This document shows positions 24,828 through 30,663 of a stretch of DNA of 30,663 nucleotides, piece by piece. The notes beneath the pieces are model-generated. The model searched no databases, was not told where the DNA came from, and saw only the letters and a program-made list of their open reading frames with translations. Source of the stretch: a virus; the IMG/VR virus record IMGVR_UViG_3300042924_003604, positions 1 to 30,663 of that record. One strand, written 5' to 3'. Numbering within the stretch: the first letter of the stretch is position 1; the number at the start of each line of letters is the position of its first letter. Both the position numbers and the translations under genes were made by a program.

Positions 24828-26177
24828 TCAGGCGGGGGTGAGTTCAGCCCGCGCCTGTGCCACAGCAGCAGGAGCGGTCAAGGTCTGGCCTTTGGCTTCC
24901 GCTGCAGTGATCAGCTCACGAGCACGGCCGGCCAGGGCGGCGCCTTGGATGATCGGATCCACCGCGACCGGAGCGGCAGGGGCGGCTTCGGTTGCGGTGG
25001 GTGCGGGGGCGAACGTCACCGGCTGCAACGCATCAGCCATCCGCTCATCCTTAGCGGTAGCGATCCGCTGCCGCTCGGCGGCATTCACCAGCATCGCGGC
25101 TTCGGGGCCGGTGGTGTGACCATCGGTGGCGAGCTTCTCAATCAGGGCTTCATGGCCAGGCAGGGCCATCGAGCGAACCGCGGCGACGCGCTCGCATTCA
25201 GCGGCGGCACCTTCGGCCCGCAGGATCGCGGCGGCATCTGGATGATCAGCGGCCCAGGCGGCCGCCTCTGCGGTGGGAGTCATGGGAGGAGAGTCCATAG
25301 AAGAAGCGATGGCCGGGACGGTGATCAATGAGCGGCCAGAGGCCGCGCGATCGTTGAGCATAGAGATGGTCTCTTCGAGTGTAGCAATACTGTCCACCAA
25401 TCCGGCATCTATGGCTTGCTGCCCGATGAACATCCGGCCATCGGCCATCCTCTCCAGCACCTGCTCCACACTCACGCCGCGCTGAGCCGCCACATCACTC
25501 ACGAACAACCCGTAGAGATAGTCCACCTCCTGCTGGAGCACCTGCCGCCCCAGCTCCGTCAGTGGCCCGTACTGGCTGGCCGCCCGCTTGAAGGTGCCCG
25601 CCACGATCTCGGTAGTCTTCCGCCCCACCGCCTCCTCCGCCTTGCTCACATCCACGTGAGTAGCCACCACACCGATAGATCCTGCCTGGCTGGTGGCTGA
25701 CTCCATCAGCACAAGATCAGCCGCCGTCCCGACCCACACTCCCGCGCTGGCCATCACCCCCTCTACATAGGTCGCCACTGGCTTGACGCCACGCGCTGCC
25801 ATCACCGCCGCCGCTGCCCGCTGCGTGCCGCTCACCGCTCCACCCGGCGTGTCGGCCATGATCACAATCGACTTGACCGACGGATCTGCCAACGCTTCCC
25901 GCACATCCCGGGCGAACAGCTCCGTAGACGATCCGCCGCTGATCTCCGTCATCATGTTCATTCGCGGCGCCATCACCCCACGCAGCGGGATCAACGCAGC
26001 GCCATCCTGCACCGTGTAACCCTGCGGATCGTTCACCAGCGGTCGGCCGATCTTCGCCTCCACCGCCGCCACATCCACCGACTCACCCCGGGCCCATGCC
26101 GCATAGATCCCGTGGATCTGCTCCAGCCGGTGGGGGGTGATAGCCCAGGGGGCGTTCAGGATGTCGAGAACAGTCAT
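24828..26177 (-). CDS. S49-family prohead protease with scaffold-like C-terminus
   Basis: 449 residues. The first 280 are a ClpP-like S49 protease: strand SIVIMADTPGGAVSG, then VEGVMASAGVWVG with the likely nucleophile Ser144, and GTFKRAASQYGPLTEL with the likely general base Lys197. It matures the prohead by cleaving scaffold and portal parts. The last 156 residues (after Met294) are Ala-rich and helical (EAAAWAADHPDAAAILRAEG), resembling a scaffold. In lambda, gene C contains Nu3 in the same frame. An internal start at ATG 25298 is possible but has no clear ribosome site. Confidence 0.85.
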   Translation of the reverse strand: MTVLDILNAPWAITPHRLEQIHGIYAAWARGESVDVAAVEAKIGRPLVNDPQGYTVQDGAALIPLRGVMAPRMNMMTEISGGSSTELFARDVREALADPSVKSIVIMADTPGGAVSGTQRAAAAVMAARGVKPVATYVEGVMASAGVWVGTAADLVLMESATSQAGSIGVVATHVDVSKAEEAVGRKTTEIVAGTFKRAASQYGPLTELGRQVLQQEVDYLYGLFVSDVAAQRGVSVEQVLERMADGRMFIGQQAIDAGLVDSIATLEETISMLNDRAASGRSLITVPAIASSMDSPPMTPTAEAAAWAADHPDAAAILRAEGAAAECERVAAVRSMALPGHEALIEKLATDGHTTGPEAAMLVNAAERQRIATAKDERMADALQPVTFAPAPTATEAAPAAPVAVDPIIQGAALAGRARELITAAEAKGQTLTAPAAVAQARAELTPA

Positions 26178-28047: not shown

Positions 28048-29931
28048 CTAACGGGTGAACTTCGACACGCCAGCAAACAGCCCGCCCCCGCTGGAGCTGG
28101 TGGAGGATGGGCCAGCGCTGGCATCCCTGGCGCCACCTTCCGCCAGCCGCTCCAGCTGGTCCCACATCGTCGCTCTGTTGTACTTCCGCTTCAGCAGCTC
28201 CAGCATGGCCAGGCAGTACACCTCAAGGTCGAGCGGTTCATTCCGCGCACCCGACGGGCAATGCCACTCCAGCACCTGGAAGCCCTTCACGTACCGCGGT
28301 TGCAGCCGCTCCGCCGTCAATCCCGCCAGATACTCCTCCGTCGTCTCATCATCAAAATGCACGTAGCCCGGGCCTGGCTCCGCAATCTTCAACCTGCTGT
28401 AGACCGTCCGCTTCAACCCATGGCCGCCCACCATGTACAGCGTCAGACCATTCGCGATCGTCCGGCCCCTGAAGGTCACATCGATCCTGTTGCCCTTGCT
28501 CAGTGCCGGCGCGTCCCGCTTGTTCGCTCCCTTGATCGCCACCACTCCCTCCCTCGTGTGCTCCCGGGCCCAGTTGTAAGCCTCCGGCGTGAAGTGCCCC
28601 GCCGTGTCCACCGCACAGAACCGCACCCGCATCGTGCCGCCACCCTCCCGCGGAAAATCGGTTCGCAGAATCGTCAGCACCTGATCCCACACATCATCTT
28701 GCGCCGGGTCGCCCTCGATCTTCTGGTGCCACACCCGCCAGCTCTCATCACCCCGGCCATACCCCTTCACCTTCACCTCCAACCAGGTGTCCTGCACGTC
28801 CACGCTCATCAGCAGCACCAGCACACCCGCCGGGCATGTCCCCGCCCGATACTCACCCGCTCGCACAATCAGCCCGTCAGCGCTCACCTTCGCCAGCGCT
28901 TCATCCTCCCACGCCTCCGCTGCCCGCTTGTTCACCCAGCCTTTGAGCAACAGCGGATCACCGTGGGCCCTCAGAAACTCATCCCTGATCTGCTCCCACG
29001 GTGTCCACCCCGCCGGCGCATACCACCCGGGCAGGTGGAAGCCTGCCGTCATCCCATCACCCGCCGCGCTCGGCTTCCATACCGCGCCCATCAACATCGC
29101 GGTCTTGTGTTCCTGTCCCACCCGTTCCCCGCAAGCCGGGCATCGCATCCACACATCCCCATCCGGTCGGTCCCATTGCGCATGTTCCCGCCACTTCAGC
29201 ACCTCATGGGCGCCGCAACATGGCATCAACGCCGCATAACCCCGCCGGTCGCTGCGCTTCTCATACTCCTCCGTGATCCTGCACGCTCCCCTTGTACCCG
29301 GCGTGCTCGTGATCAGCACCTTGCCCATCGGGAAAGTACTAGTCCTGGTCTCCGCATTCTCCAGCGGGTCGCCCTTATCATCCGCCTCCATCGGGTAGCT
29401 GCTCACCTCATCCGCCGCCAGGTACGCGGCCGGCATGCTCTGCAGCGCACTACCACTGTTCGCACCCGTCAGCACGAACAGTCCCCCTCTGAACTCCTTC
29501 AGAAACATCGTGTTCCCGCTGTCCCGTGATCGGGCCGGTGCGATCAGCTCCGTCAGTACCGGCGTTTCCTTCAGCAGCGGATCCAATCGCTGCCGGTTCA
29601 ACCGCTTCGCCATGTCCAACGTTGGCTGCACCAGCAGCGTCGGGCCCGGCCACAGATGGATGATCGCCCCCAGCCAATTCAGCACCACCTCCGTCTTCCC
29701 CATCTGGCTCCCGAACATCAGCACCACCCGCCGCCACGGGCTCGACGGGCTCAGGCAATCCATCGGCTCCCTCAGGTACGGCGTCCGATCCGTTCGCCAT
29801 TGCCCCTTCTCCGCTGACCCCTTCCCGCTCAGCCATCGATGCCGGTCCGCCCACTGGCTCACCGTCATCGGATCCGGTGCACGCAGCCCCGCCAGGAATG
29901 CCCGCTCATAAACCTGCCCGCCGTCAGCCAT
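28048..29931 (-). CDS. terminase large subunit (GpA family)
   Basis: 627 residues; ATPase and nuclease that pumps DNA into the prohead and cuts it. Walker A FGSQMGKT (residues 73-80), Walker B AAYLAADEVS with Asp174-Glu175, a Cys cluster (PCCGAHEVL; RCPACGERV) typical of GpA proteins, then a nuclease core with MSVDVQD and CAVDTAGH as acidic clusters. GPGPTLLVQPTLDMAKRL-type segments fit lambda gpA relatives, which cut at cos. It overlaps the small-subunit gene by 8 nt. Confidence 0.92.
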   Translation of the reverse strand: MADGGQVYERAFLAGLRAPDPMTVSQWADRHRWLSGKGSAEKGQWRTDRTPYLREPMDCLSPSSPWRRVVLMFGSQMGKTEVVLNWLGAIIHLWPGPTLLVQPTLDMAKRLNRQRLDPLLKETPVLTELIAPARSRDSGNTMFLKEFRGGLFVLTGANSGSALQSMPAAYLAADEVSSYPMEADDKGDPLENAETRTSTFPMGKVLITSTPGTRGACRITEEYEKRSDRRGYAALMPCCGAHEVLKWREHAQWDRPDGDVWMRCPACGERVGQEHKTAMLMGAVWKPSAAGDGMTAGFHLPGWYAPAGWTPWEQIRDEFLRAHGDPLLLKGWVNKRAAEAWEDEALAKVSADGLIVRAGEYRAGTCPAGVLVLLMSVDVQDTWLEVKVKGYGRGDESWRVWHQKIEGDPAQDDVWDQVLTILRTDFPREGGGTMRVRFCAVDTAGHFTPEAYNWAREHTREGVVAIKGANKRDAPALSKGNRIDVTFRGRTIANGLTLYMVGGHGLKRTVYSRLKIAEPGPGYVHFDDETTEEYLAGLTAERLQPRYVKGFQVLEWHCPSGARNEPLDLEVYCLAMLELLKRKYNRATMWDQLERLAEGGARDASAGPSSTSSSGGGLFAGVSKFTR

Positions 29932-30496
29932 CGGTCAGCGCCCTCAGTGCAATCAGGATTTCATCAGTCAACAGCTGGTGGCACTGGCGCGCGTCACCGC
30001 AAGCCGCCACCAGTCCCGACACCCGATCTGGAATCCCCATCATCTGATCGCGCACCGTTCGCCCCAGGTCGAAAGCCTTCCTGTCCACCTCTTCAGTTAC
30101 AACCAGCTCACCCCTGCCCTGCAGTGCCGCCAGTTTCGACACCTCGGCCTGGTAATGCTCCCGCCTTGCGCGGCTGTCGTTGAGATCCGGGATCTTATCC
30201 TCTGGCAGCGACTCGATGTAGGCCCGCAACTGCCGATCACTCACCGGCGCCGTGGCCACGCCCGCCGCGGCCGGCTTCGGCAGCACCGGTTGACGTGATA
30301 CCCCATCGGCTGGCGCTGCCTTCTGCAGCGTGTTCCTCGCCCACAGCTCCACAGCCTTTTCCTCGTCGAGGAGCTCGCGGCCGTCTGGCATCGTCACCAC
30401 CGCGTCAGCTATCCGCCCCTGACGGATCGCCTTCCCAACCGCAGATGGGCTCACCCCCAGCCGCCTGGCCAGCTCGCTCTTCGTGACTTCCGCCAT
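29924..30496 (-). CDS. terminase small subunit (Nu1-like)
   Basis: 190 residues from ATG 30496; the frame opens at 30538, but that part overlaps the repeat array, and 30496 gives the natural start MAEVTKSELARRLGVSPSAV. That segment is a winged helix-turn-helix of the Nu1 kind (R-L-G-V-S-P-x-A-V-x-K-A-I-R-x-G-R-I), recognising the packaging site. The middle is a Pro/Ala linker, then a helical oligomerisation domain (HYQAEVSKLAALQGRGELVV; GRTVRDQMMGIPDRVSGLVA). AGG in AGGTTCAAGCG precedes the ATG. Being next to the box array, this protein is a good candidate for binding it. Confidence 0.82.
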   Translation of the reverse strand: MAEVTKSELARRLGVSPSAVGKAIRQGRIADAVVTMPDGRELLDEEKAVELWARNTLQKAAPADGVSRQPVLPKPAAAGVATAPVSDRQLRAYIESLPEDKIPDLNDSRARREHYQAEVSKLAALQGRGELVVTEEVDRKAFDLGRTVRDQMMGIPDRVSGLVAACGDARQCHQLLTDEILIALRALTDG

Positions 30497-30516
30497 CGCT
30501 TGAACCTGGTCGGCCC

Positions 30517-30545
30517 ATGTTAGAACACTTTGAACCACGGTTCAA
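30517..30545 (-). promoter_or_regulatory. candidate late promoter for the terminase-led block
   Basis: On the - strand TTGAAC (30545-30540) and TAACAT (30522-30517) are separated by exactly 17 nt. Each matches four of six consensus bases. RNA would start near 30510, 14 nt before the ATG at 30496. The -35 and spacer coincide with the palindrome TTTGAACC-AC-GGTTCAAA, so a bound protein would block or recruit polymerase. Confidence 0.4.
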
Positions 30546-30569
30546 ACCTGGTTCAAAGTCGGTTCAAAG
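30529..30569. repeat. phased TTTGAACC / GGTTCAAA box array
   Basis: Four 8-bp boxes: TTTGAACC 30529-30536 and GGTTCAAA at 30539-30546, 30550-30557 and 30561-30568. The last three repeat every 11 bp, about one helical turn, so a protein could bind all on one face. The first two form a perfect palindrome with a 2-bp spacer. Degenerate copies TTGAACC lie at 30500-30506 and 30612-30618, and GGTTCGAAC near the right edge. Confidence 0.85.
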
Positions 30570-30593
30570 CCCCGCTTGGGGGAGGGGGTCACC

Positions 30594-30663
30594 ATGCCTT
30601 GGCCTGCCAGATTGAACCATCTTTCCCGCCTCCCGCTAGAGATTTCGCGGGGTTCGAACAATG
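30594..30663 (+). CDS. N-terminal start of a truncated divergent gene
   Basis: ATG 30594 has a strong ribosome site GGAGG at 30581-30585 (8-nt gap), and the frame stays open to the window edge, giving 23 residues starting MPWPARLNHLSRLPLE. It would be transcribed away from the terminase genes, with the box array between them. The identity cannot be judged from so few residues. Confidence 0.4.
   Translation, partial: MPWPARLNHLSRLPLEISRGSNN

Follow-up and report, generated by a model that had tools for sequence, protein, structure and literature searches.

The closest described system is the cos site of phage lambda, whose parts are ordered cosQ-cosN-cosB (PMC4669245, PMC4856287; NC_001416). 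Within it, cosQ is a conserved 7-bp site and R2 lies in the orientation opposite to R3 and R1 (PMC4669245); the title of one paper gives the distance from an R site to the nick as 47 ± 2 bp (reference 25 of PMC4856287). Counted from the nick in the lambda record, R3 is found at 51 nt (+), R2 at 109 nt (-), R1 at 154 nt (+) and the ATG of nu1 at 191 nt. Phage N15 shares the lambda-type cos without the R3-IHF-R2 arrangement, and its cosB has one critical TerS site (PMC4669245), compared to six box copies at the locus described here.

In the literature located, no description of a cos site in cyanobacterial siphoviruses was found. According to TerL similarity, the closest named relatives of the virus analysed here are Synechococcus phages S-CBS1 and S-CBS3 (74.5% identity), which have been stated to lack terS (PMC6157547). 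When read across their ends, the GenBank records of both phages proved to contain neither the 5' portion of terS nor the greater part of cos, which made a comparison of the site impossible; the published absence of terS may be an effect of assembly. The gene is unannotated in both of these "complete" records (HM480106.1 and GU936715.1; L019-L022).

A phased repeat array next to the terminase genes

The window, i.e., the whole 30,663-nt stretch of viral DNA that was analysed, contains four exact copies of GGTTCAAA (0.40 expected per window), all located inside 40 bp. Three of them are direct boxes starting at 30539, 30550 and 30561, at an exact spacing of 11 bp, while an inverted copy at 30529-30536 forms the perfect palindrome TTTGAACC-AC-GGTTCAAA with the neighbouring box. 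Looser copies of 7-8 bp are present on both sides of this cluster, at 30500-30506 and 30612-30619. The direct boxes, the palindromic partner and the flanking looser copies had all been described in a first-pass annotation of this DNA and were confirmed. In Markov simulations of the window, none of 150 runs contained any 8-mer occurring four times within 60 bp. An Rfam search and a promoter/terminator scan produced no matches.

The array is adjoined by terS (29924-30496, minus strand), encoding a small terminase (PHROG 57, E=8e-28) with an N-terminal winged-helix domain (residues 1-57). Next comes terL (28048-29931, minus strand), encoding a large terminase of the lambda gpA type (Pfam GpA_ATPase, E=4e-72; GpA_nuclease, E=3e-87), which is the adjacency expected of a lambda-type cos. 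The divergent gene that the first-pass annotation had placed on the other side of the array is absent: the window stops at 30663, and relatives spanning the junction carry a gene of the same direction there.

Iterons of replication origins are likewise direct repeats at helical spacing, and the array looks iteron-like in this respect. That it represents such iterons, or another repeat without a role in packaging, is nevertheless extremely improbable, since throughout the family the array is tied to cosN and to the N-terminal domain of TerS.

Evidence for a fixed genome end

Relatives were gathered by a TerL search of viral contigs (two scans, 80 loci per scan). The same kind of search in bacterial genome contigs yielded no relatives, and the exact pattern GGGGCTTTGAACCNNNTTT, when sought in viral contigs, gave beyond the known relatives isolated matches without an array. 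Of the terL-bearing contigs, 99 have a true left end, and in 36 of them, drawn from many metagenomes, the first base falls no more than 1 nt away from the equivalent of the window's end (in 30 cases it is one and the same base); 14 other contigs with a true end read across the junction. The shared start point is located ~26 nt before a conserved CTAGCGG, and the contigs start mostly with GGTGATCC, GGTGTATTC or GGTCGTCC. Read from this end, the window starts with CATTGTTCG, one base short of the shared position. From the coincidence of contig starts at this point (36 of 99), we infer that the window ends at cosN and that the genome has a fixed end at a set distance from terS, as judged from assembled contig ends. 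The segment at 30652-30663 (minus strand) would be the left half of cosN; it reads CATTGTTCGAAC from the nick, which is predicted to be the left cohesive end, shortened by one base at the edge of the contig. The equivalent sequence in the spanning relatives L018, L026 and L102 is GCATTGTTCG.

Only two contigs carrying the window's own type of boxes (type A, see below) end at the nick, namely the window itself and L002; L029/L001 stops ~11 nt short of it on the inner side, and four contigs of type A cross the nick, as DNA that is replicating or circularised would. The contig of L055 has no terminal overlap, and the right side of cos is absent from its other end. The two scans for right-end contigs gave one usable end, that of L170, which stops with AAGGGTGATCCTATGG and overlaps by 13 nt the left end of L091, a contig from the same sample starting with GGTGATCCTATGG. 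The estimated cohesive-end length of ~13 nt comes from this one contig pair, single-stranded ends being invisible in contigs.

In the spanning relatives L003, L018/L004 and L026/L005, the same-direction gene is followed by GGGTCCT and then by the nick position. The motif GGGTCC[TC] lies 24-27 nt upstream of the nick in spanning relatives, and the window stops before that part. GGGTCCT, which we take to be lambda's cosQ, is also found 30 nt before the right end of the lambda record. Moreover, many relatives carry TTTTCGCTA shortly after the nick, at about the position of lambda's own TTTTCGCTA.

An array beside terS could also be the place where TerS initiates pac-type packaging, in which case the genome would lack fixed cohesive ends, and headful packaging with a terminus at 25,643 has been reported from a PhageTerm analysis of the more distant relative S-LBS1 (PMC6157547). 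This terminus call may have been affected by assembly. For the locus examined here a pac site is very unlikely, as contig ends piling up on a single base, an end overlap of 13 nt and an adjacent GGGTCCT are features of cos, and TerL belongs to the lambda gpA type.

At the end of the S-LBS1 record (MG271909.1:34236-34641; L114), one stretch is duplicated and GCCTAACCT repeats are found next to terS. In another record (L090, IMGVR_UViG_3300009492_000003), the first 75 bases appear to be an Illumina adapter in place of the phage end.

Layout of the site compared to lambda cos

Judged from the sequence, the array is very probably cosB, the part to which TerS would bind, in the lambda-type cohesive-end site of a cyanobacterial virus. 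The first-pass annotation had offered a cosB-like site of the small terminase as one of two readings, and this one gains strong support from the distance to cosN, from the lambda-like layout and from covariation with the TerS domain.

On the minus strand, going inward from the inferred end at 30663, cosN would be followed by an I2-like segment (30620-30651), which extends to the first box, is conserved in nearly all relatives and includes the conserved CTAGCGGGAG (30630-30639). Then come a putative R3-like box, TGGTTCAA (30612-30619), 47 nt from the nick, and a C-tract spacer, CCCCCTCCCCC (30578-30588), which separates it from the phased cluster. This cluster would comprise three R2-like boxes, a (30561-30568), b (30550-30557) and c (30539-30546), all reading TTTGAACC and located in 11-bp phase at 99, 110 and 121 nt from the nick, and the inverted box GGTTCAAA (30529-30536) at 129 nt, which forms the palindrome with box c. 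A putative R1-like box, GGTTCAA (30500-30506), lies 159 nt from the nick, just before the ATG of terS at 169 nt, and terS and terL complete the order. The orientations of the boxes are (+) at 47 nt, (-) at 99, 110 and 121 nt, and (+) at 129 and 159 nt.

The order of parts in the window's family is the same as in lambda. Further points of likeness are GGGTCCT just upstream of the nick in the relatives, the positions of the boxes with the R2 position reversed in orientation, the N-terminal winged helix of TerS, the gpA-type TerL and the location of terS directly after the site. Unlike lambda, however, the window has (i) the box word GGTTCAAA in place of the R sequence, (ii) three phased direct boxes and one inverted box at the R2 position, (iii) a C-tract spacer, and (iv) a different cohesive-end sequence, of ~13 nt according to one contig pair. 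New here are the box word, the direct boxes in 11-bp phase at the R2 position, the C-tract spacer and a family-wide correspondence between box words and types of TerS domain. The IHF consensus WATCARNNNNTTR is absent from five type-A cos segments, and for this reason the site was not placed with the complex lambda cosB, which contains IHF site I1.

Box words in related genomes

A motif comparison at the same locus in related phages, proposed in the first-pass annotation, was performed with 37 non-redundant cos segments, and it revealed a constant layout with a varying box word across these distinct relatives. The word is GGTTCA in type A, GTCAGAAGG in type B (L068, L084), GTTAGG in type C (L077, L104) and CTTACA or GTTACA in type F (L030, L143, L155), and others have TTAA-containing words. 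In most relatives a box in the word of their own TerS type is found 44-50 nt from the nick, and C-tracts occur ~77-88 nt from it.

When the segment 39-58 nt from the nick was compared with the cluster at 81-150 nt, the longest common word averaged 7.05 nt within the same genome and 5.38 nt against genomes of other types (own-genome excess, p=5e-5). Own-genome word sharing was not significant for three control segments. With one genome taken per TerS-domain group (nine groups), the own-genome box match gave a median p=0.002. The groups were defined by average linkage, because single linkage merged nearly all TerS domains and left no power. Direct 5-mer repeats at 11-bp spacing numbered 49 across the family (4.0 expected), with further peaks at 20-22 and 30-31 bp; the genomes compared are related and these counts are not independent events, a kinship which the one-per-type runs address in part. 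The peaks at 11 and 20-21 bp persisted when type A was left out. Taken singly, genomes not belonging to type A, B, C or F often gave a weak repeat signal.

In type-F genomes terS is located 1-2.5 kb from cosN and terL starts at 1.8-2.9 kb, and the boxes are still found beside cosN. This separates a packaging site from a terS operator. Extra genes (one with a ParB-like N-terminus, one methylase-like) are present between cos and terS in L030, L143 and other type-F genomes, and a Dam-like DNA methylase gene seems to be inserted between terS and terL in L002/L031.

The DNA-reading domain of TerS and the boxes

In the sequences compared, the box word changes in step with the winged-helix domain of TerS and not with its C-terminus. 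With the TerS C-terminus and the neighbouring cos DNA controlled for, the similarity of box regions correlated with TerS N-domain identity (partial r=0.35, permutation p=5e-4), whereas the C-terminus showed no such link with box similarity (0.065). Three natural dissociations agree with this. TerS of L068 is 69% identical to that of the window in the C-terminus and 41% in the N-domain, and the boxes are different. In L018 and L102, with N-domain identities of 86% and 70% and C-terminal identities of 54% and 53%, the boxes are the same. In L030, TerL is 96% identical to that of the window, the N-domain of TerS is unrelated (24%), and the word found exactly 47 nt from the nick is CTTACA.

An AlphaFold model of type-A TerS contains a confident N-terminal winged helix (pLDDT 85-89 in 10-residue blocks), the remainder being uncertain. 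Residues 2-59 of the model align with the terminase small-subunit domain 7lw0 (Z 6.5, rmsd 2.4, 55 aligned residues), and the N-domain also aligns with the TerS domains 6hn7 and 1j9i (for the latter, Foldseek prob 0.99, TMt 0.64). It matches Xis and MerR proteins equally well; the winged-helix fold is common, and the match was therefore given modest weight, as the fold alone would not identify function. A PDB sequence search with the TerS profile detected weak helix-turn-helix matches only (best E=0.005).

Operator and promoter readings of the array

Phased boxes with a palindrome resemble an operator, and the second reading in the first-pass annotation was an operator bound by a regulator encoded at 1566-2159. 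On this reading a phage protein, such as the helix-turn-helix protein encoded at 1548-2159, would control the late genes from the array, and the link with terS would be one of position. A homologue of this protein is encoded both by the window and by the complete type-A genome G004, a 45.4-kb record that appears to be closed because it has a terminal overlap of 127 bp. Several observations argue against the operator, which we consider highly improbable. Homologues occur together with different boxes, as in S-LBS1 and in G011, whose boxes are of type E. None was detected in most array-bearing records: the search of 11 further records, of which several have arrays, gave no homologue, G001, G005, G006, G007 and G010 included, although some of these records may be fragments. 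In addition, the boxes track the TerS N-domain, and in both the window and G004 exact boxes are confined to the cos position.

The late promoter that the same annotation had proposed over the array was not recovered: a sigma-70 consensus scan of the window was negative, and the only candidate was TAACAT (30518-30523, minus strand), a possible, weak and degenerate -10 element downstream of the array. A cosB overlapping a late promoter, at which bound TerS represses or times late transcription, would add to the cosB reading and not replace it; that one site might serve both purposes had also been raised in the first-pass annotation. In type A the box sequence TTGAAC lies 17 nt upstream of TAACAT, and in the relatives the -10-like word TAG[CG][CA]T is enriched near the boxes (14 of 37, compared to 3.1 expected). 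This strict word is, however, missing in 23 of the 37, and the window has no sigma-70 consensus promoter, so we view such a dual site as rather unlikely.

Proposed mechanism of packaging

For the preferred reading of the array as cosB, the following sequence of events is proposed. The winged-helix domain of TerS would bind the boxes along a single face of the DNA helix, with cooperative assembly on those in phase, and this binding would position TerL to introduce staggered nicks at cosN. Packaging would start from the terS end, and cosQ (GGGTCCT, at the other chromosome end in the relatives and outside the window) would mark its stop.

The cooperative DNA complexes of Xis and BldC (PDB 2ief, 6ama) involve proteins whose small winged-helix fold is of the class seen in the TerS model, and the title of 2ief refers to a nucleoprotein filament; the function of Xis and BldC differs from that of TerS. 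By analogy, we hypothesise that TerS may also form a filament. The fuller proposal, that a head-to-tail, one-faced TerS filament on the 11-bp-phased boxes both replaces bending by IHF and, through an overlap of the array with the late promoter, shuts down or times late transcription as packaging begins, is speculative and seems to us distinctly unlikely.

One fixed layout is shared by about nine types of TerS winged helix, each with box words to match, and several near-natural domain swaps are available among them. The TerS-cosB recognition code can thus be put to a direct test with small proteins and short DNA, and so, in this family, can the assembly of a lambda-type terminase without an IHF consensus. 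With the site as a marker, many metagenomic phage contigs could also be closed and oriented at their true ends.

Elsewhere in the window, at 954-1463, the phage encodes a dCTP deaminase-like protein (Pfam DCD, E=2e-28).
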